Source: Schlesneria paludicola DSM 18645
GTDB taxonomy: Bacteria; Planctomycetota; Planctomycetia; Planctomycetales; Planctomycetaceae
DNA length: 64,000 bases
Direction: 5' to 3'
Assembly: GCA_945876035.1 (NCBI GenBank)
Contig: CAMCMU010000013.1
Coordinates: 1 to 64,000, forward strand
Shown: positions 29,471 to 47,206 of the stretch, piece by piece
How the letters are laid out: each line of letters begins with the position of its first letter
Numbering within the stretch: position 1 is the stretch's first letter
Notes under the pieces: generated by a model
What the model saw: the letters and a program-made list of their open reading frames with translations, nothing else
The model's database searches: none
Told to the model about the DNA's origin: nothing
Translations under genes and position numbers: made by a program

Positions 29471-30919
29471 TCACGCCAGAATCTCGCGAATCACTCGACC
29501 GTGAACATCCGTCAGACGGAAATCCCGTCCGGCATGTCTGTAGGTCAATTGTGTATGATCCAAGCCCAGTTGGTGCAGTATTGTGGCGTGGATATCGTGA
29601 ATGTCGAGTGGATTACTTATCACGGAAATGCCAAATTCATCGGTTTCGCCGTAGGTCACGCCTGGTTTAAAACCTCCCCCGGCCATGAAGAGCGAGTAAC
29701 AACCGACGTGGTGGTCCCGGCCACTCGTTTCCGAGATTTTTGAAGTATGCGGAGTGCGTCCCATCTCGCCAGCCCAAAAAACGATGGTCTCATCGAGTAG
29801 CCCGCGTTGCTCGAGATCGATGATCAGGGCTGCCACTGATTGGTCCGTGATTTGAGCATTCTTTTCATGATTTGCCTTGAGATGTCCGTGTTGATCCCAA
29901 GGGGAGTTGTTGCTGTCAAAGCTCGGGCAGGTAATTTCCACGAAACGAACACCAGCCTCCACCAGTCTTCGAGCGCGCAACGCCTGAGTCGCGTAGAACC
30001 GCTGGTGCTCGTCGGTGGAGTCCAATCCATAGAGTCGGCGAGTTTGTTCCGTTTCACCGTCGATGTCGGCCACTTCAGGAACGGTACTTTGCATCAAAAA
30101 TGCGGTTTCATAATTAGCGATTGCCCCTTCAATCGCTAAGGCGTCTGAACTGTGAGCGGCAAAGGAGCGCCCTTGCTCCGCTGCCAATGCCAACTGACGC
30201 CTCTGAACTGCTGGTGTGTCGCCTGGTTTAATGTTATCCACTGGCTCACCCTTGGCACGCATCATCGTCGCTTGGTGACTGGCGGGCAGAAAAGAACTGC
30301 CGAAATTTTCGAGGCCACCATTCGGCACCCAGTCATTGTTGAGCACAAGATAACCTGGGAGATTGCGATTTTCGGTTCCCAGTCCATAGGAGACCCAGGC
30401 TCCGAGGCTCGGAGCCTGTCCAAGGATCCGCCCTGTGTGCAACAAAAGATTCTGCTGCCCGTGGAGGGGAAGTTCGCCAACCATGGAACGAACAACGCAC
30501 AGACGATCCGCGACTGTGGCGATCCGTGGGAAAAGATCGCTGATCCAAAGCCCGCTTTCTCCCCGTTGATGAAACGCCCAAGGGCTGCCGAACCAGACAC
30601 GATCATCGGAAGACCGTTGCGAACGCTTGGCATCCACTTCCCCAATCTTCCCGATCGGCTTCCCTTCATGCTGCTTCAGCATCGGCTTTGGATCGAATGT
30701 ATCGACATGGCTCGGTCCGCCGTCCATGAAACAAAAAATGATGTTTTTCGCGCAAGGCGCATGCTGTGGGATCGATGCCGCCGCCGCGCGCTGGGCAAAC
30801 AAACCATTGAGTGCCAGCCATCCGAATCCGGCCGACGCTTGTTGCAGAAAACCGCGTCTTGAATTGGCATTGGCAATGCGCCCGTTGCAGTTGCCGTTTG
30901 AGAGTGGATTGATCGACAC
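29471..30919 (-). CDS. DUF1501 secreted protein (sulfatase-like fold)
   Basis: This 482-residue protein carries a Tat-type signal (SRRGFLQQASAGFGWLAL) and the DUF1501 motifs: NIIFCFMDGGPSHVDTFDPK, SPWAFHQRGESGLWISDLFP, TIVFWAGEMGRTPHTSK and GRDHHVGCYSLFMAGGG. The family has an alkaline-phosphatase/sulfatase-like fold with unproven activity and is almost always paired with a DUF1549/DUF1553 gene, as here (40 bases apart). GTG 30919 with GGAG seven bases upstream is chosen over GTG 30937. It is likely exported folded and works with the upstream gene product on a polysaccharide or similar substrate. Confidence 0.95.
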   Translation of the reverse strand: MSINPLSNGNCNGRIANANSRRGFLQQASAGFGWLALNGLFAQRAAAASIPQHAPCAKNIIFCFMDGGPSHVDTFDPKPMLKQHEGKPIGKIGEVDAKRSQRSSDDRVWFGSPWAFHQRGESGLWISDLFPRIATVADRLCVVRSMVGELPLHGQQNLLLHTGRILGQAPSLGAWVSYGLGTENRNLPGYLVLNNDWVPNGGLENFGSSFLPASHQATMMRAKGEPVDNIKPGDTPAVQRRQLALAAEQGRSFAAHSSDALAIEGAIANYETAFLMQSTVPEVADIDGETEQTRRLYGLDSTDEHQRFYATQALRARRLVEAGVRFVEITCPSFDSNNSPWDQHGHLKANHEKNAQITDQSVAALIIDLEQRGLLDETIVFWAGEMGRTPHTSKISETSGRDHHVGCYSLFMAGGGFKPGVTYGETDEFGISVISNPLDIHDIHATILHQLGLDHTQLTYRHAGRDFRLTDVHGRVIREILA

Positions 30920-30958
30920 GGTCGTTCTCCGTGACACCTCGGCAGGTGACCTTGAGTG

Positions 30959-33900
30959 TCAGTGATAGTAGATGAACTCGGGGGAATTGAAAAAGACATG
31001 CGCAAGACGCTCCCATGCCAATGCATCGGTCATCACGTTTTGGCATCCCTCCGGCGTCAATTCGGTCAACGCAATCGACCATCGCGCGGACTCGGATCTG
31101 TCGGGCTCTCGTCCGAAAGCTCGAATGAACATGGTGGCAATGCGACCGCCGCTGGAAGAATCGGGCTGATGGATCAGCTGTTCTGCCCACTGTTGTGACA
31201 TCGCTTTCACAAACGGATCATTCAGCATCATCAATGCTTGCGTCGGATCATTCGTCATATCACGACGTCCTGTGGGAAGCTTGAGGTCCGGTAAATTGAA
31301 GCCAGCCAGAAACTTTGGAGGTTCCATAATCGACATCTTAAGATACAGAGATCGTCGACCATGCCCATCCACCGGGCCAGCAAATAGCCGTTTTTTCGAG
31401 TCTTCCGCAACACGTGGTGGGTCAATCGGGTGGCCAAAAAGTGCCGGATTCAGCGTGCCAGACACGGACAGCAGTGAATCGCGAATCGCTTCCGCCTCCA
31501 GCCGACGAGTGGAATAATGGTGCAGCAGGCGATTGCCGGGGTCAATCTCCTGAGCGAGAGGACTCACCAATCCCGATTGACGAAAAGTCTGGCTGAGGAC
31601 GAGGCGACGCACCAGCCGCTTGGTGGACCAGCCACCGTGAATCAGCTCCTGTGCTAGGTAATCCAGTAACTCTGGATGCGATGGTATTGCCCCAAGATGG
31701 CCAAAATCGTCAGGCGATGCGACGATCCCCGTTCCGAATATCCATTGCCAAATGCGGTTGGAATACACTCGGGATGTCAGCGGATGACTCGGCTGGAGTA
31801 ACGACTCGGCCAACTCCAGACGTCCGCTCCCACGACTTTCTGATACGTTGTTACGACCGGCGAACATGCTCAGAAAGTCGGGCGAGACCCATTCCCCGAG
31901 GACATCGACGTTTCCTCGCACGTTCAACGGATAACGGACCTTTGCCGATCCTCGCTCATCCATGCTGTTCACCGTGTGCGCATGGGCAATTCCCTGCTCG
32001 ACTGCTCGATATTCGGCCAGCAGTGTGGCGAGGGGCGTCCCGGCGTCCGCCACGTTTGGCAAGAGGTCGTTGGCAAGGATCCACTGCAGAACCAGCAGGT
32101 CACCTTCTTCCGATTTGCCGAGGCACCAGCGTCGAACAGTGGCCATCAACCATCCGCGGACTCGCTGAACAGCCTCGTCCTCCGTTCGGGGCAACACGCC
32201 TTCAAACAGGGTTGTTAAGTGCTGGAGGGTTCTCTGTGGAGTTTCCGCCTTCTCGTGAGCGACGATGCCGGTGATGCTCAGCCAACTTCTTTTGTCATAA
32301 CCTAAATCGGTATGCGCCAGTCCCTTGGCCAGTCCCGTGCGGGGAGGAAAATTGGGATTGAGCGACGCGGTTGTCAATTCGATCGTTACCTGTGTGACTC
32401 CGTTTTTTAACGGCGTATCGGCAAATGAGATCCACGTTGGTTCCGGGGAATTCAGGAAACCAATCGTTTCATTCTGAAAGGCATTGCCATCCACCACGAG
32501 ATGCCCACCAAATTCACCTCCTGCGAGTTGAACGCTGGCGATCTTTCTTGCAATGGACCCCTGTGGAGGTGATCGGAGTGAACCGGGGAGTTTCGATGAC
32601 AATGCATTTGTATGAAAACCGCTCGGTAAGAGTCGTGCGACGATCAAGTCACCTTCTAGAGCAATGAGTGGCGTACCGTCGACCACGTACCCATGTTTGA
32701 TGCCGTCCCCTTCCCACACCCATCCGTCAGGAAAAATCGGTTTCCGAAAATCCGCAAGAATCTGAAATTCCGAGTTTGCTTCGATTCTTTTGGCACGTGC
32801 CTGTCTCCATTCCGCCGCAAAGTCAATCCAACGTTTCTCGATGTCAGTGTTTCCTTTTGTCAGAAGCGTCAGGGGATACAAGACATCATCAATAGTCACT
32901 TCAGAGAGTTCTTTTACCGAATTGGCACGACTTAAAATCTTCGGCAAGAATGCCCCTGCTTCACTCACAACAGAGAGCCAACGTGAAGCCATTTCACGCT
33001 GAATTTGTGCACGCAGTTTTTGAAGCTTGATGATGGCAATGTCGTGTTTTCCCGGCAGATCTACCACACGCGAGGTCCATCGCGGCGTCATGAAAACGGC
33101 TGCCAAAGAATAATAGTCTCGCTGCGATACAGCCTCTAATTTATGATCGTGACATCGAGCGCACGCAACTGTTGTGGCCAGGAATGCTTCGGAAAAAGCC
33201 TCAATCTTGTTGTTCACCATGTCTTGGTGGATGCCGTTAAACATCAGGCTGCTTCCATGTCGATGCTCACCGAGATGGTAGAATGCCGGACCAATCAGGC
33301 TCTCGTTGATTTCCCGTTCTCGATCAATGCGCGGCGACGGTAACAGGTCTCCGGCTAGTTGCTCGCGGAGGAGTTGATCGAATCCGATATCTTGATTGAA
33401 TGCCCGGATGAGATAATCGCGATACTCCCAAGACCCCTTGGCTGGGTTATCCCATTCATAACCGTAAGTGTCCGTGTATCGAACCGCGTCCATCCAGTGT
33501 CTCGCGAATCGTTCACCAAAGAACGGCGACGCCAGAAAACGATCAACAAGAGTCTCATAAGCCGTCGTCGGATTCGTCTTCCAGTTTTCCAGAAATGCGA
33601 TGCGTTGATGTGGTGTCGGCGGTAATCCCGTTAACACGAACGCCAGACGTCGCAAGAGGATTTCCGGCTCGGCAGGAGAGGCGGGTTCCAGTCGGACGTC
33701 ATTCAATGAACGGCAAATGAATCGGTCAACAGGTTCGAGAGTCCCTTCGGTAATCTTGACGTCGGGCGGGTGAAATTTGCGAAGTGGCTGCAGGCTCCAC
33801 CAGGCCAATCGTTTCTGGAAGGCCTTCGCCCATTCCGTGGCCGCCAAATTGCTGGCCGGAGCAACATCGGTTCGCGGGTCGAATGCACCCTGTTGAATCC

Positions 33901-34285
33901 ACGTTTCCAGTAACGCCACGTCATCGGCCCCAAGTCGATCTTCGGGCGGCATCTGGATGTCGATATCGACATACTGGACGGCTTTAATCAGCAGGCTCTC
34001 TGCCGGTTTCCCGGGCACGAGAGCTGGTCCTCTGTTGCCTCCCTGACGCCAGCCCGGCTGAGAATCCAGCCTCAGCCCGCCTTCCTGCTTTTGCCTTCCA
34101 TGGCATTCAATGCATTTTTTTTCCAAGAGCGGGCGAATTTTTGATTCAAAAAATGCCAAAGTCTGCGCGTCGGCAACGGTTCCGGTCGCCTCGGAAATCA
34201 GATCGGTGGCCAAGCCCTGGCCTGTCACCCAGAGGGTCAGCCACACGTAAAACACGCGATGTAAGGACCAACCAAGCGGATCCAT
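30959..34285 (-). CDS. Planctomycete cytochrome c/DUF1549/DUF1553 protein
   Basis: This 1108-residue exported protein begins with a signal-like segment (HRVFYVWLTLWVTGQGLA). The planctomycete cytochrome c domain follows, with a single heme site (KKCIECHGRQKQEGGLRLDS) and a distal LVPGKPAESLLIKAV. DUF1549 spans about 170-370, with RRLAFVLTGLPPTPHQR and FARHWMDAVRYTDTYGYEWD. A CxxCH-type ACARCHDHKLEAVSQ lies near 380. DUF1553 covers about 790-1060, with SRVYSNRIWQWIFGTG and LHHYSTRRLEAEAIRDS. It forms an operon with the DUF1501 gene. The biochemical role of such pairs is not established; a redox-linked polymer-degrading function is often proposed. Confidence 0.97.
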   Translation of the reverse strand: MDPLGWSLHRVFYVWLTLWVTGQGLATDLISEATGTVADAQTLAFFESKIRPLLEKKCIECHGRQKQEGGLRLDSQPGWRQGGNRGPALVPGKPAESLLIKAVQYVDIDIQMPPEDRLGADDVALLETWIQQGAFDPRTDVAPASNLAATEWAKAFQKRLAWWSLQPLRKFHPPDVKITEGTLEPVDRFICRSLNDVRLEPASPAEPEILLRRLAFVLTGLPPTPHQRIAFLENWKTNPTTAYETLVDRFLASPFFGERFARHWMDAVRYTDTYGYEWDNPAKGSWEYRDYLIRAFNQDIGFDQLLREQLAGDLLPSPRIDREREINESLIGPAFYHLGEHRHGSSLMFNGIHQDMVNNKIEAFSEAFLATTVACARCHDHKLEAVSQRDYYSLAAVFMTPRWTSRVVDLPGKHDIAIIKLQKLRAQIQREMASRWLSVVSEAGAFLPKILSRANSVKELSEVTIDDVLYPLTLLTKGNTDIEKRWIDFAAEWRQARAKRIEANSEFQILADFRKPIFPDGWVWEGDGIKHGYVVDGTPLIALEGDLIVARLLPSGFHTNALSSKLPGSLRSPPQGSIARKIASVQLAGGEFGGHLVVDGNAFQNETIGFLNSPEPTWISFADTPLKNGVTQVTIELTTASLNPNFPPRTGLAKGLAHTDLGYDKRSWLSITGIVAHEKAETPQRTLQHLTTLFEGVLPRTEDEAVQRVRGWLMATVRRWCLGKSEEGDLLVLQWILANDLLPNVADAGTPLATLLAEYRAVEQGIAHAHTVNSMDERGSAKVRYPLNVRGNVDVLGEWVSPDFLSMFAGRNNVSESRGSGRLELAESLLQPSHPLTSRVYSNRIWQWIFGTGIVASPDDFGHLGAIPSHPELLDYLAQELIHGGWSTKRLVRRLVLSQTFRQSGLVSPLAQEIDPGNRLLHHYSTRRLEAEAIRDSLLSVSGTLNPALFGHPIDPPRVAEDSKKRLFAGPVDGHGRRSLYLKMSIMEPPKFLAGFNLPDLKLPTGRRDMTNDPTQALMMLNDPFVKAMSQQWAEQLIHQPDSSSGGRIATMFIRAFGREPDRSESARWSIALTELTPEGCQNVMTDALAWERLAHVFFNSPEFIYYH

Positions 34286-35398: not shown

Positions 35399-36049
35399 AT
35401 GAACGTCGACGAACGAGAGTGGATTGGTTCCCGACGGGAATGGCCTGATGAGGCCGGCGATATCTTGGAACGACTGCTGCGGGCGGCGGTTCATATCCGA
35501 TCGAGACGGGCGACATTCGTTGAACGCTACGGACTGACGGAAGCCCGCTATAGCGTTCTGCTGGCCTTGGAAAATGCAGATGCGGAGGGTTTGTCTCAGT
35601 CCGAATTGGCCGTGAAGTTGATGCAGTCTGAATCGAATGTCAGCACTCTCATTGAACGGATGCAACGCGAGGGGTTAGTCGTCCGCTCGCGGTCTGTGAT
35701 CGATCTTCGCAAGCGAGTTCTATTCATCAGCCCCGATGCGAGACAATTACTGGAACAAATCGCACACGCAAAAAGGCATTGGTCCGCTTTGCTGTTAGGT
35801 GACGTTCCGATGCATCAACGCTTGACTTTTGCTTCTGTGATCAGACACATCAGCGAAAATCTTGAAATGAATCGCGAGACAGACGAGAAGATGGCCCCGA
35901 AACGCGAGCGGTCTGCGGTGAACCATGAGCAGCACAGGATCGAATGTCATCCGGCCGACGAGGTCCCCTTGAATTCACCGCATGTGGCTCTGCGTCAAAT
36001 GCTTTCAACACTCGGTTTGAACAAGCAGTCTGCCAAGGGGGGGAGATGA
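35399..36049 (+). CDS. MarR-family transcriptional regulator of the efflux locus
   Basis: This 216-residue protein has a MarR winged helix-turn-helix. RATFVERYGLTEARYSVLLA leads into the domain, LSQSELAVKLMQSESNVSTL is the recognition helix region, and RMQREGLVVRSRSVIDLRKR is the wing. A C-terminal extension of about 60 polar residues is not typical of the family. The ATG at 35399 is five bases after GGGAG; earlier in-frame starts lack such a site. Its stop overlaps the start of the outer-membrane protein gene (ATGA). It is first in the operon and probably senses a toxic compound and represses the locus. Confidence 0.93.
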   Translation: MNVDEREWIGSRREWPDEAGDILERLLRAAVHIRSRRATFVERYGLTEARYSVLLALENADAEGLSQSELAVKLMQSESNVSTLIERMQREGLVVRSRSVIDLRKRVLFISPDARQLLEQIAHAKRHWSALLLGDVPMHQRLTFASVIRHISENLEMNRETDEKMAPKRERSAVNHEQHRIECHPADEVPLNSPHVALRQMLSTLGLNKQSAKGGR

Positions 36050-38691
36050 TCGTTGCGAAGCGATCGAGGCTAGCCATGAGGTTGATGGTTATCGTATCCC
36101 TATGCCTGAGCAGCGGTTGTTCGAGAATGTTCTGGCGTTCGCAGGCAGATTTCGACACTTACAACCTCCTGCAGCGAAAACAGTTCGACTCGCGCTGGAC
36201 GATTCCGCGAACCACGGTTGAACCGGATCCCCGCAGCCGTTTTTTTGATCCGTTTGACGCAGACTCCCCGCCGTTACCTCCCGATGATCCGGCATCCGGT
36301 CAGTACATGCAGTTGGTTCATGGGATGCGTGGTTACAAGAGTTGGCACAAATTTGGAGAGTCGCTGTCGGTGGAAAACCCTGGATGGCTGGAAAATTTTC
36401 GCCTTTCGGTGCCAGTTCCTGAAAACGACTACGCATTTTCTGATGGATTGACGACGGTCCGTGCGTTGTCCGAGGAGGTCACCGACGAGACCCCAGCGGA
36501 GTTAGTCCCGACGATTGAAAAATTGACGTTGGCACAGGCGGTCGAACTCGGAAATATCAACAGTCGTGAGTACCAAACACAGATCGAGGATGCCTATCTG
36601 TCTGCGTTGCAACTGACTCTTGACCAATTTCAATTCGAGGTCAGGTATCTTGGATTTGGTGCTCAAAAGCCAACGGGAATTCTGACCGGGACGGATGTTC
36701 CCTCAACAAGCGATACGGTGGGCTTGAAGTCCCGATTCGGAGTCAGTCAGTTGTTGCCGACCGGCGGTCAATGGATTGTTGAGATGGCAAACAACACGCT
36801 TTGGCTGTTCTCGGGAGGACAACAATCAACATCAGCGTCCGTACTTTCTTATTCACTTGTCCAACCCCTGTTATTAGGAGCGGGCCGCAAGATCGGTCTC
36901 GAAAACCTCACTTTGAGTGAACGTGAATCGCTCTATGACCTCCGCACGCTCGCCCGTTATCGAAAGCTCTTTTTTGCCGACACGGTGACTGGATCAAATG
37001 GCGGATTCCTGGATTTGTTAAGGCAGGCACAGGCGATCGACAATCAGAGTGCGTATGTTGCGGGGCTTTACACTCAAACAGAGCGACAACGTCAATTGGT
37101 GGCGAAGACGCCGTATCGGCATTTTGCCCCGGGTGCGTTTCCTCCGGGAATTGAATTTCCACCAGACTTAAAGCAAAAAATTGAATTTCAGCCAGATCGA
37201 GAACTGCTGTATTGGAAAGCCGTAAATCCAATGACACCGGACGAGCTGCGGCAGTTGCTCTTGTTAAGTGATGATGCGGGCTACAAGCGGGAAGTCAAAC
37301 AGTTATTTGATCTCCTGTTAGTTGGTGGGACAAGCACTGACGTTCTTCAACTGGCAACGCAACTGTCGAGTGCAGAAATTCAACTCCGAGCGTTGCAGCG
37401 AAATTACGCAGACGCAGTGGACCGGTACAAGTTGTTTCTCGGCCTACCAACGGACTTGCCAACCACGGTGGATCTGACACTGATCAAGCAATTCCAATTG
37501 ATTAGTCCGCAGAACCAACAACTGGAGTTGGCCCTTGTGGAATTCGTCAACCAAACGTCTCTGATCGACGACCTGGATCCACCTCTTAAGCAGGTTCGTC
37601 TCGCGGCTGACTCATTGTCGAATCTCCTCGAATCTGTGCGGAATTATACTTTCGATGAGGTTCCCGAACTTTTTGAACAGGTCATGGAAAATCTGCCCGT
37701 GAGATTGTCGAGACTGAAGTTCGAGAATTCTCGTGAGCAGGTTCAAAAGGCACTCGCCCGCGACCGTGTTCTTTTAGAAATGATTCAGGAGAACGTTGAT
37801 GGTCCGGAAGGTCAGGCACATACGGACCCGAGTGCTGGGACTCTTTTTCGAATGTCCCAGCGCCTGTTAAAGAAGGAGGATGCCTCAGCAGATGAACGCC
37901 GCCGGGCACTCACCGCCATCAATGATACCCGTGAAAAATTGTTTACAGTCGTTCAGAGTTTGAGAGTCATAGAAATTGGGCTTCGTAGTGAATTGATCAC
38001 GCTTCCAGAATTTGACCTCTCGCTCGAATCGGTGGTATCGATTGCTGTCGAAAATCGACTCGATTTGATGAACTCTCGTGGCCGAGTGATGGATGCACGG
38101 CGCGCCATGGAAGTCGTAGCCAATCGGTTGGAAGCCGTGGTCAACCTTGTCGCAGCCGGTGATCTGAACACGCTTGAAAACTCGAACCAGCCTTTCAGTT
38201 TTCGTGGAAGTCGCAGTTCTTTCCGATTCGGAGTCCAGATGACGGCCCCCATTGATCAGGTCGCTGAACGAAACGCCTACCGAGCATCCTTAATTTCGTA
38301 TCAGCGTCTTCGGCGTGACTACATGCGCCAGGAGGACTTGGCCAAGTTTGAGGTGCGGACCCATTGGCGACAATTGAATGTGACTCGCACGAATTTTGAA
38401 GTCAGCCGAAAAAACCTTCGCCAAGCCGCATTCCAGCTTGATACAGTGGTGACGAATGCAGAAGACCCGAATCGGTCACAGGTGGGTCGAGCGGGAATGA
38501 CGGCCTCTACCGGCAATAACGGTCTGAATTTACTGAATGCATTGAACTCCGTATTACAAGCCCAAAACACCTTGATTCAGCTTTGGGTAGATCACGAGCG
38601 ATCTAGGGTTAACATTTATCGAGATATGGATACAATGCAGATCGATGAGACAGGTCTTTGGCTCGATCCAGTTTACCAAGATCTGCGATAG
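36046..38691 (+). CDS. TolC-like outer-membrane efflux lipoprotein
   Basis: This 881-residue protein starts at ATG 36046, overlapping the regulator's stop. A lipoprotein signal (MRLMVIVSLCLSSGCSRM) with the acylated Cys is followed by an outer-membrane efflux protein fold. LTLAQAVELGNINSREYQTQ and LESVVSIAVENRLDLMNSRG mark the two repeated helical units, each followed by strand-rich membrane-loop segments such as SYSLVQPLLLGAGRKIG. It is about twice the length of E. coli TolC, with long inserted regions around 330-480 and 570-680. It presumably forms the exit duct for the adaptor and ABC genes downstream. Confidence 0.9.
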   Translation: MIVAKRSRLAMRLMVIVSLCLSSGCSRMFWRSQADFDTYNLLQRKQFDSRWTIPRTTVEPDPRSRFFDPFDADSPPLPPDDPASGQYMQLVHGMRGYKSWHKFGESLSVENPGWLENFRLSVPVPENDYAFSDGLTTVRALSEEVTDETPAELVPTIEKLTLAQAVELGNINSREYQTQIEDAYLSALQLTLDQFQFEVRYLGFGAQKPTGILTGTDVPSTSDTVGLKSRFGVSQLLPTGGQWIVEMANNTLWLFSGGQQSTSASVLSYSLVQPLLLGAGRKIGLENLTLSERESLYDLRTLARYRKLFFADTVTGSNGGFLDLLRQAQAIDNQSAYVAGLYTQTERQRQLVAKTPYRHFAPGAFPPGIEFPPDLKQKIEFQPDRELLYWKAVNPMTPDELRQLLLLSDDAGYKREVKQLFDLLLVGGTSTDVLQLATQLSSAEIQLRALQRNYADAVDRYKLFLGLPTDLPTTVDLTLIKQFQLISPQNQQLELALVEFVNQTSLIDDLDPPLKQVRLAADSLSNLLESVRNYTFDEVPELFEQVMENLPVRLSRLKFENSREQVQKALARDRVLLEMIQENVDGPEGQAHTDPSAGTLFRMSQRLLKKEDASADERRRALTAINDTREKLFTVVQSLRVIEIGLRSELITLPEFDLSLESVVSIAVENRLDLMNSRGRVMDARRAMEVVANRLEAVVNLVAAGDLNTLENSNQPFSFRGSRSSFRFGVQMTAPIDQVAERNAYRASLISYQRLRRDYMRQEDLAKFEVRTHWRQLNVTRTNFEVSRKNLRQAAFQLDTVVTNAEDPNRSQVGRAGMTASTGNNGLNLLNALNSVLQAQNTLIQLWVDHERSRVNIYRDMDTMQIDETGLWLDPVYQDLR

Positions 38692-38740: not shown

Positions 38741-40690
38741 ATGTCTCACCCCACGAATTCTCAGTTGGTTTCGCCTCTTTCAATCGAGGGAAAGACTCTG
38801 CAGAGTTTGCCTGACTCAATTCCGAACCGAGCGGTTTTGAAACGACGAAGTGTCGGGCGTGTTCGGCTGGTTTGCTTGACAGTTGTGACGGGATGTCTTG
38901 GTGTCGGGATTGTTTATTGGACGGCGATTGAATCGTATTGGACGCCCACAGCAGCCATGACAGAAGGGCTGGTCTTTGAAACAGTCAAACGAGCTCCATT
39001 TCAGTTGATGGTGACTGAAAAAGGGACGATCGACAGCATGCGGAATCTGACGCTGTTGAGTAAAGTTGAAGGGACAACGACAATCATCAACATCGTCCCT
39101 GAGGGCTCGTACGTCAAGCAGGGGGATGTTGTCTGCGAGCTAGATTCTTCACTGCTCATTGACAAAGAGACGCTGCAAGAGGTTTTAGTCGTCAAGTCGA
39201 GTGCTCTCTTGCGGCAGGCTCAAGAGGATTTATTAATCCGAAAAACTCAAAACGAAAGTGATGTTGAAGCCTCTGAATTGAGGCTTCAACTCGCAACACT
39301 CGATCTCGAAATGTTTGTCGAGGGGACATTCCCTCAGCAGATCGCCGCGCTCAATGCCGAAAAAACGACGTCGGAGGCCAATCTGACTCGTTTCACAGAA
39401 AGCTGCATTTTCGTTCGCCGACTTGTCCAAAAAGGCCTGCGAAATCAGAATGATCTCGAAGCAGAAGAACTGAATCTTCAGGACGCAAGGCATAAAGCCG
39501 AATCGGCAAGAAAGAGGTTCGAAGTTCTCAATTTATTTACGAAAAAGAGGACAGAGTCGGAACTCACAGCCAACAAGCATGAAGCGGAACGCAATCTTGG
39601 TCGAGTCAAACGCAGGAATGTGGCGGCCATGGCTCAGTTTGAGGCCGAGTACAAGTCGCGTGAGCTGACTTATGAGGTTGAATCGAAGAAACTCGGTCGT
39701 CTCAAAAAACAGATTGAAGCCTGTCAGATCAGGGCGGATCAAGATGGACAGGTCGTATACGCCAATGGTCGCGATGGTCGACCTGGCGATGTCTTAATTG
39801 AAGTGGGGAGCCAAGTTCGCGAACGTCAGGCGATCATCAACCTTCCCGATCTCGATTCGATGAAAGTCAATGCGCGCATTCACGAATCGCGAATTTCGCT
39901 GATTCGTGAAGGACTTTTGGTCAAGATCAAAATTGATGCGTATTCCGAGGACGTGTTCCACGGTGTGGTTCATTCCGTCGCGTCCGTGCCGAGTTCGACA
40001 GGTTCCTACAGTCGTGACTTTAAAGAATACGAAGCCGTCGTAAAAATTAATGACGATGCCGACAAGGTCAATAAGCTGCGGCCCGGTTTGACAGCCACCG
40101 TCGAAGTATTGATTGAACGTCGCGAGGACGTGCTGCAGATACCCGTGCAGTCAGTTCTTTCATTCGGTGCGAAGCAGTTCGCATTTGTCGCTTCCGTTGA
40201 CGGTGATGTCGAGCAAAAAGAGATTTCGATTGGACAGACGAATGACCGGACGATCGAGATTCTGACCGGTTTAACGGAGGGTGAAAAGGTGGTGATGAAT
40301 CCTCGATCCCATTTCCAGAAAGACATTGAAATACTCGAGACGGTGGAAGCGGATCGGCAATCTCAAGGCCATGAATCCCCGACACTGAAGCCGAACGTCT
40401 TTCCGCCTCCGTCGGAAAAGGTGCCGCCTACCGGAGACCATTCGCCGTCGGGAGATCAATCCTCTGTGGATTTGGCAGTTCGCTTCAAGGGGCTAGACAA
40501 AAATGGTGACGGCAAGTTGGCGAAGCATGAGGTGGATGAGCCGTTGCTTTCCGGTTTCAAGTCCGCCGATGTCAATGGCAACGGGACAATCAGCCAAGAA
40601 GAATTAAAAAGGGTGCCGTTGAAGCTCCAGAGTCGATTGCCGACCGCGGCTTCCCGATCTCCAGACGATTCGAAGAGCGGCGGCCTGTAA
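38741..40690 (+). CDS. MacA/HlyD-type periplasmic adaptor with C-terminal EF-hand pair
   Basis: This 649-residue protein has one N-terminal membrane segment (VRLVCLTVVTGCLGVGIVYW) and a lipoyl-type half-motif (VEGTTTIINIVPEGSYVKQG). A long coiled-coil hairpin follows (about 140-330, rich in Glu, Lys and Leu), then the second half-motif (IEACQIRADQDGQVVYANGR) and beta-barrel and membrane-proximal domains (VQSVLSFGAKQFAFVASVDG). After a Pro-rich linker two EF-hand calcium loops occur: DKNGDGKLAKHE (586-597) and DVNGNGTISQEE (610-621). The adaptor joins the inner-membrane ABC pump to the TolC-like duct. The EF-hands are not part of standard adaptors and suggest calcium-dependent assembly or anchoring. 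Confidence 0.93.
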   Translation: MSHPTNSQLVSPLSIEGKTLQSLPDSIPNRAVLKRRSVGRVRLVCLTVVTGCLGVGIVYWTAIESYWTPTAAMTEGLVFETVKRAPFQLMVTEKGTIDSMRNLTLLSKVEGTTTIINIVPEGSYVKQGDVVCELDSSLLIDKETLQEVLVVKSSALLRQAQEDLLIRKTQNESDVEASELRLQLATLDLEMFVEGTFPQQIAALNAEKTTSEANLTRFTESCIFVRRLVQKGLRNQNDLEAEELNLQDARHKAESARKRFEVLNLFTKKRTESELTANKHEAERNLGRVKRRNVAAMAQFEAEYKSRELTYEVESKKLGRLKKQIEACQIRADQDGQVVYANGRDGRPGDVLIEVGSQVRERQAIINLPDLDSMKVNARIHESRISLIREGLLVKIKIDAYSEDVFHGVVHSVASVPSSTGSYSRDFKEYEAVVKINDDADKVNKLRPGLTATVEVLIERREDVLQIPVQSVLSFGAKQFAFVASVDGDVEQKEISIGQTNDRTIEILTGLTEGEKVVMNPRSHFQKDIEILETVEADRQSQGHESPTLKPNVFPPPSEKVPPTGDHSPSGDQSSVDLAVRFKGLDKNGDGKLAKHEVDEPLLSGFKSADVNGNGTISQEELKRVPLKLQSRLPTAASRSPDDSKSGGL

Positions 40691-40808: not shown

Positions 40809-41519
40809 ATGTACGCTGCTCGCCTGATCGAATTGACGAAGACTTATTTTCTTGGAGACAATGTTGTTCGCGCTTTGCGTGGTATCACGGTGGATATTCC
40901 CGCAGGTGACTTTGTGGCGATTATGGGTTCTTCAGGAAGCGGAAAAAGCACCTTACTCAATCTTTTGGGGGCCTTGGATCGACCGACCAGCGGGCACTAC
41001 GTGTTGTCGGGTCATGACGTTGGGACGCTCAACGATGATCACCTGTCAGAAATTCGGAACCGGCTCATCGGATTCATTTTTCAGTCCTACAATTTAATTC
41101 CGCAATACACGGTCCTCGAAAACATTCAGGTGCCACTTCATTATCGCAGTGACTGTCGCACGATCGGTCCGGCAGACATGAATCGGTGTTTAGATCTCGC
41201 CAACAAGGTCGGTTTGGGTGATCGACTCGATCACCGGCCGTTTCAGTTGTCAGGGGGACAGCAACAACGCGTGGCGATTGCTCGGGCGCTGATCAATGAT
41301 CCGGAAATCATTCTGGCAGATGAGCCGACGGGAAATCTGGATTCGGTGACGGAAAAAGAAATTATGGAACTATTGACCGGGCTGAATCGTGAGGGCCGGA
41401 CCATCATCATGGTGACACACGAAACCAGCGTTGCTCGTCGGGCACGCCATCAAATTGTGATGCAGGATGGATTGATTGCCAGTGACGGGATGTTCAACAA
41501 CGATGGGGAATCGAAATAG
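40809..41519 (+). CDS. MacB/LolD-type ABC transporter ATP-binding protein
   Basis: This 236-residue ATPase has Walker A ([15 protein letters not shown]), a Q-loop ([20 protein letters not shown]), the signature [15 protein letters not shown], Walker B ([15 protein letters not shown]) and a switch His (IIMVTHE). The order and the family-specific [10 protein letters not shown] place it with MacB, LolD and FtsE. It drives the permease encoded 65 bases downstream. Together with the adaptor and outer-membrane genes upstream it forms a MacAB-TolC-like efflux machine, probably exporting a lipid, peptide or macrolide-like molecule. Confidence 0.96.
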
Positions 41520-41584
41520 GCTCAACGCCGAATTGCCACACAGGAGCCCGAGGCCTCTTTACTCATTCCGTGAGTTGTCAGACA

Positions 41585-42952
41585 ATGCCAATCGCCAACA
41601 CTCTTCGTACGATTCGCTTGGCATTGAAGAGCCTGATGCTGCACAAGCTTCGCTCGGGCCTGACGATGTTGGGAATTGTTTTCGGTGTCTTTTCAGTCAT
41701 CGCGATGCTGGCGATCGGAGAAGGTGCGAGTATCCAGGCGCAGCAGCAGGTTCTGGCTCTGGGTGCCACGAATATCATTTGCGTGACCGTCAAACCCCCC
41801 ACCGATTCTTCGCAGTCGCAAGGCGCAGGCCGTAGTGGGTCACGAGGATTTTCCGTCCCCAAATACGGTCTTTTGCGAGCGGATTATGAATTGATGACGA
41901 AGACGATTAAGACGATTTCCGGAGCCGTTCGGATGCGAGAAATCGTGAGCGAGGTTCGCTACCTTCAACAGGGGCTTAATGCCAGGCTCGTCGGCTCCAC
42001 TGCCGAATACGCCGAAATGAACCACCTACATCTGCTGCGGGGACGGTTTTTGTCGGACCAAGACGAAAATGACATGGCGAATGTTGTTGTTCTTGGAGCG
42101 TCGGCTGCCGCGACTCTGTTCCCGTTTGATGATCCGATCGGCAACGCGATTCAGATTCGTTCACACCGTTACACGGTCATCGGAGTCACGAAAATGCGAA
42201 CGGCTTCGGCGTCGATCGGGGGCAGTCTCTCGGGGCAAGATTTCAACAAGGACGTTTACGTTCCGTTGAGCACGTTCCGCTCGCGTATCGGGGATATGGT
42301 CGTCACGCGACTCAGCGGAACGTTCAGTGCCGAGGAAGTTGAGCTGAATCAAATCACCTTGAAGGTGACGGATCGTTCAGAGGTGATTCCGACCTCCGAG
42401 GTTGTCCGCGAGTCCCTGCGACTGACGCACGGAACTAAGGCCGATTTTGAGGTGATTGTCCCGCTGGAATTGTTGAGACAGGCGGATCAAATTCGGCAGA
42501 TTTTTAATGTCGTACTCGGTTCCATCGCGGCGATCAGTCTCGTTGTTGGCGGAATTGGAATCATGAACATTATGCTTGCGACAGTCACAGAACGAACCCG
42601 CGAAATTGGTATTCGCCGCGCGTTGGGAGCCAGACAGCGTGATATCATTGACCAATTTCTGACTGAAACGATTGTTCTGGCGGGGTCGGGAGGGTTGATC
42701 GGCATTTTGTTCGGGCTGGCAACCCCTCTGGCGTTCCAAGGATTGAAAGAGATTGTCCGAAACTTTGTGTTCGATCAGGCTTCGGATGTCTCTCCTATGG
42801 GAATGATGTTTTATGGATTGGAACCGCGGATCGCCTGGTGGAGTTTGCCCGTTGCATTTGGCATCTCGGTTGGCATTGGCATTGTCTTCGGCATCTATCC
42901 TGCTCGATCTGCAGCGCGTATGGATCCGATCGAAGCGCTCCGACATGTGTAA
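41585..42952 (+). CDS. MacB/FtsX-type ABC transporter permease
   Basis: This 455-residue protein has the MacB topology. One N-terminal membrane helix ([20 protein letters not shown]) is followed by a large periplasmic domain (about 50-310, with [20 protein letters not shown] and [12 protein letters not shown]). Three C-terminal helices follow, with the FtsX block [20 protein letters not shown] and [18 protein letters not shown]. The periplasmic domain contacts the adaptor. The GTG at 41570 would add five residues; ATG 41585 is preferred. It is the last gene of the efflux locus. Confidence 0.95.
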
Positions 42953-44695: not shown

Positions 44696-47206
44696 TCATT
44701 CGTCCACAGGATCAGAATTGGAATCCGATTCAAATTGGATCGCATATCGTTTTTTGAAGGACTCTCGCCAATTGTCGTCAATGATCTGCTGAAATTCGGA
44801 ACCGATAAAGTCATAGGGCGTGGGTAGGAACCCCGTGAACTTTTCCATGACGAACTTCGATTGCAATTCGCCGAGTGTTGTAATTCCTTCCGCTTCAGAG
44901 CCGGCGGCGTCTCGATCTTGAACCCGCACAGCATAATACGTCTGAGCCGACTGTGAAAACACAACGCCGGTTTCTCCATTGCCCAAATCATCAAAAATAG
45001 TCTTCATGAAGGCATAGCCCGGCTGTCCAATTCCTTCGATCGTTGATTCAACCGGCTGTTGGAGCCCGAATTGGGGCAAGCTTTCGGCAACTCTTAACCA
45101 CGTAAATCGGGGTGTCACAGAGACTACCGCGGGCAACGAATCCACAGTCCCATTGATCGTTTTTCCGGAAATGGCAGCAGGAATATCCGCTTCAGTCGTC
45201 TTGATCGCTTCCACGAACTCTTTGGCTCTCTTCTCCGCGAGCGGTCGTGCCTGATCGAGTTTCCAAGCACTTATGACGGACTTTTCTACCGCTTCGTCCT
45301 TGGGGTTTGGAATCTGTGCGGGGACTTCGAGGATCTTCCAATAAACGAATCTCGAACCGCGCAATGTGTCGGCGCGACGCGGTGTGTAGACTTGCAGCCG
45401 ATATCCTCTGCCGGACGAGTCTTGCTCGAAGATTTCTTCGGCCACGGAGGTCTGAGGCCGGCTGCCGCGTGTGCCAACCACAGGATCTGTTGCACTTCCG
45501 ATTTGCTCGTCGAGCGAGGTCACGAATTCCATTTGAGTCATGGTCTTCGTTTCTTTGTACTCCAAGTGATTGTCCGCAGCGTAAGTTTGCAAAGACTCCG
45601 CAAAGGTCTCCGCGAACGTTCCCCGGTTTGGACTTTCGAGCGTCATATGCTTCAGGCTTAATTCCATCATAAATTCAAGCGATTTATCAGACGCCATACC
45701 CATTTTAATCAAGGCTTTGTCTCTTAATATTGTCTCGCGGATCTGTTCCTTCAAGTCGTCGTCGAGCTCCTGATATTTGATGGCGGGGGCAGAACTCTGA
45801 TCGGAAACAGGTGAGGATTCTGCAACCTTCGACCGATTTGATTGATCCCCCTCCTGCCCTTCATTTTTGTTGGGAGGGGTAGTCTCCGTCGCCGCGGATT
45901 CCTCGGCGGTTTGGGACGGCGATTGCTCCGAAGGTGTTGATTCCGCTGTGGGGAGCGTTTTCTTTTCAGCCTCTAAGTTCTCGGCTGCCGTCTCGGCCTC
46001 GCCAGCGGGTGTTTCTATGTTTGGTGCGGAATTCGTCGGGGGACTTTCACCGGGAATATCCGTATCTTTTTCAATTTCGGTACTTTCAGGTTTTGTCGGA
46101 TCGGCCGAATCAGCAACGCCTGTCTCGGGCGTTTGTTTCAACTCGGGAAGGCTGCTGGTCGGATCGGCAAGTTCGATCGCACGGTAGTTGTTCTTGTTTT
46201 TAGAGTAGTAATCGGTCACCTCAGCATCCGTAATTTCAGAAACCTGTTTTTCAAAGGCCTCCAAATTGGATGCGACCAAATACGCTAACTGCACTTTGGG
46301 TGGGGTTAGAAAGCCAGGAGTCCCCTGACGGTCTCCATAGTTGTTTTTGTATCGGTCGAAAAAATTCCGCACTTCGGAATCGGTGGGATCAGGGACCAGT
46401 TTGACAAAGTCTGTGGCAGGAACCGCAATGACGGAGAGTGCTTGATGAACATGCAACCGGCGATAGTCTTGCCACAACTGCTCGGGGGTCTGTCCAGCAA
46501 TACGACCGGAGTGCGCGCCTCGGGTGAATTGCGCCATCATTTGATGAGAATCGGCAGGCGCGAATAGGAGTTCCGCGACAAGCTGAACTTCGAGTTCACT
46601 ACGGACGATATCGAATAACTCACCTTCCGACATGCCTGCATCGCTGAGCGATGCATAGTATTCCTTATTGGTTAACTTCTCCTGAGTCGCCTTGGAGAGG
46701 AAGGCATTGACTGCTTCGTCAGTGATCGACACACCCATACGGCGCGCCTCTTTCTGAAGCAGAGAAAACGAAATCATCGAGCCATCATCCAAACCGCCAA
46801 ACCTCGGTGCCGACGATTCTTTGCCGATTTTTTTAACCGCCGTCATCAGAAAATTTTCCACCTTCATGCGCCGGGATCTGAGCTGATTCAGATTCGAGCG
46901 AGTGAGATTGCCGAGTGTTGTTCGAACGACCACAGGCGGGCCGGAAGCGTTGATTCCGATGTAGCCGACGATCGCTCCGACGACCAATCCGCCGATGCCG
47001 TACTCGGCAGTCTTTCCACGCTTGTACCCAATGATCGACATGCCGGCAGCGCAAAACACCGCGACAAAAATCATGTTGCCTATCGAGAGCGTTCCCGAAT
47101 TCCGCACAAGGTCATCGAACACAAAGGAGAACACCGCGAGAATGGTAATGACCACCATCCATTGCTTTTGATTGCGTCGCACAGAATCAGAAAATTTGTT
47201 AATCAT
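44696..47206 (-). CDS. SurA/PpiD-like membrane-anchored chaperone
   Basis: This 836-residue protein resembles the PpiD/SurA N-terminal architecture, with the N-terminal anchor KFSDSVRRNQKQWMVVITIL. Two further hydrophobic segments near 45-85 are unusual for PpiD. A SurA_N-like helical domain spans about 120-260 (RRMGVSITDEAVNAFLSKAT, FDIVRSELEVQLVAELLF). A second helical module covers 290-360, and a Glu/Pro/Thr/Ser-rich low-complexity linker covers about 370-490. I could not find a parvulin signature such as a His-containing HILV motif, so it may be a chaperone without isomerase activity. It probably assists folding of exported proteins. Confidence 0.82.
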   Translation of the reverse strand: MINKFSDSVRRNQKQWMVVITILAVFSFVFDDLVRNSGTLSIGNMIFVAVFCAAGMSIIGYKRGKTAEYGIGGLVVGAIVGYIGINASGPPVVVRTTLGNLTRSNLNQLRSRRMKVENFLMTAVKKIGKESSAPRFGGLDDGSMISFSLLQKEARRMGVSITDEAVNAFLSKATQEKLTNKEYYASLSDAGMSEGELFDIVRSELEVQLVAELLFAPADSHQMMAQFTRGAHSGRIAGQTPEQLWQDYRRLHVHQALSVIAVPATDFVKLVPDPTDSEVRNFFDRYKNNYGDRQGTPGFLTPPKVQLAYLVASNLEAFEKQVSEITDAEVTDYYSKNKNNYRAIELADPTSSLPELKQTPETGVADSADPTKPESTEIEKDTDIPGESPPTNSAPNIETPAGEAETAAENLEAEKKTLPTAESTPSEQSPSQTAEESAATETTPPNKNEGQEGDQSNRSKVAESSPVSDQSSAPAIKYQELDDDLKEQIRETILRDKALIKMGMASDKSLEFMMELSLKHMTLESPNRGTFAETFAESLQTYAADNHLEYKETKTMTQMEFVTSLDEQIGSATDPVVGTRGSRPQTSVAEEIFEQDSSGRGYRLQVYTPRRADTLRGSRFVYWKILEVPAQIPNPKDEAVEKSVISAWKLDQARPLAEKRAKEFVEAIKTTEADIPAAISGKTINGTVDSLPAVVSVTPRFTWLRVAESLPQFGLQQPVESTIEGIGQPGYAFMKTIFDDLGNGETGVVFSQSAQTYYAVRVQDRDAAGSEAEGITTLGELQSKFVMEKFTGFLPTPYDFIGSEFQQIIDDNWRESFKKRYAIQFESDSNSDPVDE

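Follow-up and report, generated by a model that had tools for sequence, protein, structure and literature searches.

A conserved EF-hand pair at the C-terminus of a MacA-type efflux adaptor in Planctomycetota

The periplasmic adaptor of an export pump encoded in the stretch of Schlesneria paludicola DNA analysed here (the window, 64,000 nucleotides) ends in a pair of EF-hands, and this fusion is a conserved, lineage-specific variant of MacA-type adaptors. It suggests that calcium may help to hold or control the pump. The reading we prefer, with a probability of about 0.5, is that the protein belongs to a split MacAB-TolC-type pump as its periplasmic adaptor, and that its EF pair acts as a Ca2+-stabilised docking module which assists assembly or position. 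The features concerned are collected in Table 1.

Table 1. Pump genes of the window and parts of the adaptor (positions are those of the window; residues are those of the adaptor).
Feature	Positions	Strand	Basis
MarR-family regulator	35399..36049	+	Pfam MarR_2 45 bits, MarR 34.7 bits, both above cut-off; start codon uncertain
TolC-like outer-membrane efflux protein (OEP)	36046..38691	+	Pfam OEP 26.7 bits; sequence inspection
MacA/HlyD-type periplasmic adaptor with C-terminal EF-hand pair	38741..40690	+	649 aa, ATG start
N-terminal membrane-anchor helix, residues 38-67	38852..38941	+	AF2 helix H38-67, low confidence; hydrophobic stretch in sequence
Adaptor core, about residues 74-532	38960..40336	+	TIGR01730, HlyD_D23, HlyD_3, MacA 4dk0 alignment; helices and strands in AF2 model
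Flexible Pro-rich linker, about residues 541-577	40361..40471	+	predicted disordered, pLDDT <50; fast evolving
EF-hand loop 1, DKNGDGKLAKHE, residues 586-597	40496..40531	+	Pfam match, loop pattern, stacked modules
EF-hand loop 2, DVNGNGTISQEE, residues 610-621	40568..40603	+	Pfam match, loop pattern, stacked modules
ABC ATPase, MacB/LolD-like, of split pump	40809..41519	+	ABC_tran 117.5 bits; best NCBIfam matches MacB and LolD
MacB-type permease, MacB_PCD + FtsX	41570..42952	+	127.2 and 71.6 bits

The initial annotation had described an EF-hand pair fused to an adaptor through a proline-rich linker, with two canonical 12-residue loops, and both claims are borne out. The gene is one intact open reading frame, in which HlyD_D23 and HlyD_3 match above their Pfam cut-offs in the same reading frame as the EF-hands. 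Of the EF-hand families, EF-hand_5 (PF13202) scores 32.8 bits (cut-off 25.9, E 3.9e-8), and the matches to PF13405 and PF00036 likewise exceed their curated cut-offs. The loops, DKNGDGKLAKHE and DVNGNGTISQEE, have the features by which the EF-hand superfamily is recognised in sequence: a length of 12 residues, acidic or polar ligands at positions 1, 3, 5 and 12, and Gly at position 6, with a score above the curated cut-off. The adaptor core comprises a biotinyl-lipoyl/barrel-sandwich part, a long alpha hairpin, a beta-barrel and a membrane-proximal domain, and basic residues stand just before the membrane-anchor helix. The protein falls into RND_mfp (TIGR01730) of NCBIfam right at the cut-off (95.1 bits, against 94.9); its similarity to MacA is weaker, i.e., 47.9 bits with the MacA equivalog NF008606, below the cut-off of 342. 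By these profile scores, the adaptor is MacA-like and outside MacA sensu stricto. Among solved structures, MacA proteins come closest to the adaptor and EhCaBP1 to the tail.

The adaptor gene lies within an apparent operon: marR, TolC-like OEP, adaptor, ABC ATPase and MacB/FtsX permease. The order OEP-adaptor-ATPase-permease repeats across the family, and MarR homologues are present in 17 of the fetched loci. A longer open reading frame for the OEP (35944-38691) begins within marR; as the stop codon of marR overlaps an OEP start codon (ATGA at 36046), the true start is more likely to be 36046 than the mechanical start at 35944. The signal sequence (...VSLCLSSGC) makes the OEP a probable lipoprotein. 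Set against the single-chain MacB (NF007826), the ATPase and the permease are two genes, which score 235 and 174 bits where the cut-off is 966. On sequence grounds, the locus is a split MacAB-TolC-like pump. Its proteins stay well below the two equivalog cut-offs and so are neither MacA nor MacB sensu stricto. The window also contains, on the minus strand, a DUF1501 gene beside a PSCyt1/DUF1549/DUF1553 gene (29471-34285), a pair typical of planctomycetes, and an 836-aa protein (44696-47206) whose only matches, to SurA-like N-terminal domains, fall below threshold.

In calmodulin, the starts of the two loops of a pair are 36 residues apart. The pair in the window's adaptor is more compact, with 24 residues between loop starts, and exactly this spacing, rather than one of about 36, is found in 47 of the 58 EF pairs identified among adaptors. 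When the tail was modelled alone with AF2, from an alignment of five sequences, the predicted fold was a helix-loop-helix pair, in which a shared helix stands between loop 1 and loop 2 and a further helix lies at either end. Each loop contains a short strand, as is usual for EF-hand pairs, and pLDDT across the pair is about 80-87. The best PDB matches of this model are EF-hand proteins (EhCaBP1, calmodulin and the Ca-bound domain of the ATP-Mg/Pi carrier), at modest scores (best Foldseek E 5e-3, best Z 7.7; for the carrier domain, 4zcu, Z 6.9 over 53 residues, rmsd 2.0), and the sequence profile agrees with them. The full-length AF2 model is poor (pTM 0.27); it leaves the tail unplaced and shows no contact of the tail with the core.

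Across 38 stacked modules, loop positions 1, 5, 6 and 12 are near-invariant, although part of this ligand conservation is forced, since some of these positions are selected by the pattern used to search for loops. Strong conservation extends to the flanking Phe positions. The signals that do not depend on the pattern are the codon test, the near-fixed spacing, and the residues Phe at -4 and Gly at 6. The linker in the same modules is Gly/Pro-rich and variable (1.3 bits per column on average). In the four closest pairs of relatives, dN/dS of the EF region is 0.03-0.14 and the alignment is gap-free; dN/dS of the linker is 0.07-0.23, and two of these pairs have indels there; and that of the adaptor core is 0.04-0.06, to which the EF region comes near. 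Thus, the EF domain is under purifying selection, which is stronger than that on the linker. At position 5 of loop 2, the window's adaptor has Asn, whereas Asp stands there in the other 37 of 38 modules; because of this replacement, the site may be weaker here.

Adaptor relatives are present in all 99 near genomes searched; those named belong to Schlesneria and other Planctomycetota, the single scan of genome contigs having returned close relatives only. The combination of adaptor and EF-hands was sought among them and is not confined to the window: 58 of the 113 distinct adaptors read have the pair. An EF-tailed adaptor is present in each of the 15 genomes sampled from the window's genus. Within its family, at least 34 of the 42 genera sampled have one, a lower bound, as the loops of L048 and L075 were missed by the pattern or by an interrupted frame. 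EF-tailed adaptors occur in five other families of the class (f4, f5, f6, f7 and f9); the pair is absent from the adaptors read of three more (f2, f3 and f8). None of 23 adaptors from other planctomycete classes has it, and they have different low-complexity tails. An EF-tailed adaptor was also sought outside Planctomycetota: the best full-length plasmid match is an adaptor from Leptolyngbya, which lacks EF loops.

These other tails qualify a further statement of the initial annotation, that adaptors of this kind normally end after the membrane-proximal domain. The window's adaptor does have an extra tail; however, a tail extension as such is not unusual in planctomycetes, because the relatives generally run far past the adaptor core with other tails. 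Tails of other-class adaptors are often Gly/Arg-rich. Such tails, some with short TPEQR/SPEER-type helices, stand in the place of the EF pair in many other-class and family f2 adaptors (L099-L118, L064-L066 and L069). A name for the TPEQR-type tail of L113 was dropped, its DUF3106 match being only sub-threshold.

Mapped on the adaptor tree, EF state changes at least 14 times, so the EF tail has been lost or gained repeatedly among adaptors. At least four adaptors in identical gene order have no EF pair (L019, L044, L046 and L061), and the fetched stretches yielded no case in which an EF pair missing from the adaptor had moved into a gene nearby. As several operons without the EF tail are otherwise intact, the tail is an accessory, dispensable to the core pump. 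EF-tailed adaptors also occur in another type of pump, with the permease gene directly after the adaptor (L122, L123, L125, L126 and L130, and L072, L077 and L078), so the fusion spans paralogues. The adaptor of L124 has four EF loops, arranged as two pairs with a linker between them. In L050 and L052, a large neighbouring minus-strand open reading frame (about 1000 aa) has a single EF-like loop.

That the tail binds Ca2+ is a well-supported inference, because canonical ligands, conservation over dozens of genera, purifying selection and the EF-hand fold model all point to it. To this extent, the proposal of the initial annotation is supported in part; that pump assembly, anchoring or regulation would depend on calcium is the more tentative half of it. 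In adaptors of the MacA kind, an N-terminal helix serves as the anchor in the inner membrane, and the chain ends at the membrane-proximal domain. The EF pair should therefore be in the periplasm, probably beside the MacB-type permease. A compact EF-hand pair of planctomycete type is attached by a flexible linker to the adaptor's C-terminus; its loops most likely bind the surrounding Ca2+, whereby the domain would fold as a stable mini-module; this module could dock the adaptor to a partner (the permease, a neighbouring adaptor or envelope material), and docking would stabilise the assembly or position of the pump. EfhP, a comparable bacterial protein that has two canonical loops and is predicted to be periplasmic, binds Ca2+ at 13.7 µM, and periplasmic Ca2+ tracks the external medium (PMC9132961). 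Sites of this kind would usually be occupied, and a Ca2+-stabilised docking or anchoring module is therefore favoured over a switch.

Chance or degenerate sequence, or an artefact of assembly or reading frame, hardly comes into question as the origin of the loops: only the shortness of the motif speaks for it, whereas the curated EF-hand cut-off is passed, a comparable loop pair arises in 4 of 100,000 shuffles of the 110-residue tail, and independent assemblies (L035-L037 included) have the identical architecture. Conservation and shuffles rule it out. A more serious rival, still an unlikely one, is that the C-terminus of planctomycete adaptors tolerates various disordered or helical tails, among which the EF pair has a mild role (solubility, envelope spacing or metal buffering) and does not control the pump. 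The Gly/Arg-rich tails with TPEQR-type helical repeats on other-class adaptors and the frequent changes of EF state on the tree fit this, as does the sharing of the compact EF module with several other proteins per genome; however, purifying selection, and a spacing that hardly varies across dozens of genera, speak for the EF module having a specific role of its own.

The EF pair might instead be a true sensor, which changes conformation across the environmental range of Ca2+ and so turns export on and off. Canonical ligands and a conserved pair fit a sensor, a Ca-regulated carrier domain (4zcu) is among the structural matches of the tail, and regulation through an EF-hand domain fused to a transporter is known in eukaryotes, e.g. 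in mitochondrial ATP-Mg/Pi carriers (PMC6283063). On the other hand, micromolar sites would usually be saturated where periplasmic Ca2+ follows the outside medium (PMC9132961), no conserved amphipathic target helix was noted in a tail whose linker is variable and disordered, and some lineages keep the pump without the EF pair. Such gating is improbable, and less likely than the docking module; equally doubtful is the general form of the idea, i.e., that throughout the class bacterial tripartite export pumps have their activity or assembly switched by environmental Ca2+ via the EF-hand pair of the adaptor.

A literature search for EF-hands together with HlyD, MacA, periplasmic adaptors or planctomycetes found no description of a fusion between an EF-hand and an efflux adaptor. 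Both parts are of known kinds, and their combination and its class-wide conservation appear to be new. A conserved, lineage-wide case of this kind offers a simple test of the use of extracellular calcium in assembling or controlling envelope-spanning pumps, and it presents the adaptor C-terminus as an evolutionary attachment slot in Planctomycetota.

Among known systems, MacA of MacAB-TolC (and adaptors of the HlyD/RND type) share with the window's adaptor the core, the N-terminal membrane anchor and a gene order with a TolC-like OEP and a MacB-type ATPase/permease; the window's adaptor differs in its extra linker and C-terminal EF-hand pair, and its pump has one gene for the ATPase and another for the permease. 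In mitochondria, transport machinery with fused EF-hands is well known. The mitochondrial ATP-Mg/Pi carrier (SCaMC/APC) is similarly a transport protein with a fused EF-hand domain, but it is an unrelated transporter with an N-terminal four-EF domain, an amphipathic target helix and regulation by cellular Ca2+ (PMC6283063). EfhP (PA4107) of Pseudomonas aeruginosa also has its two canonical loops close together (D88 and D115) and a predicted periplasmic location (PMC9132961), but stands alone and is not fused to a pump adaptor. Planctomycete EF-hand_5 repeat proteins have the identical compact EF module in other, often multi-repeat, architectures; in most searched genomes that have an EF-tailed adaptor, the adaptor copy is the best match to the EF profile, itself built from adaptors.
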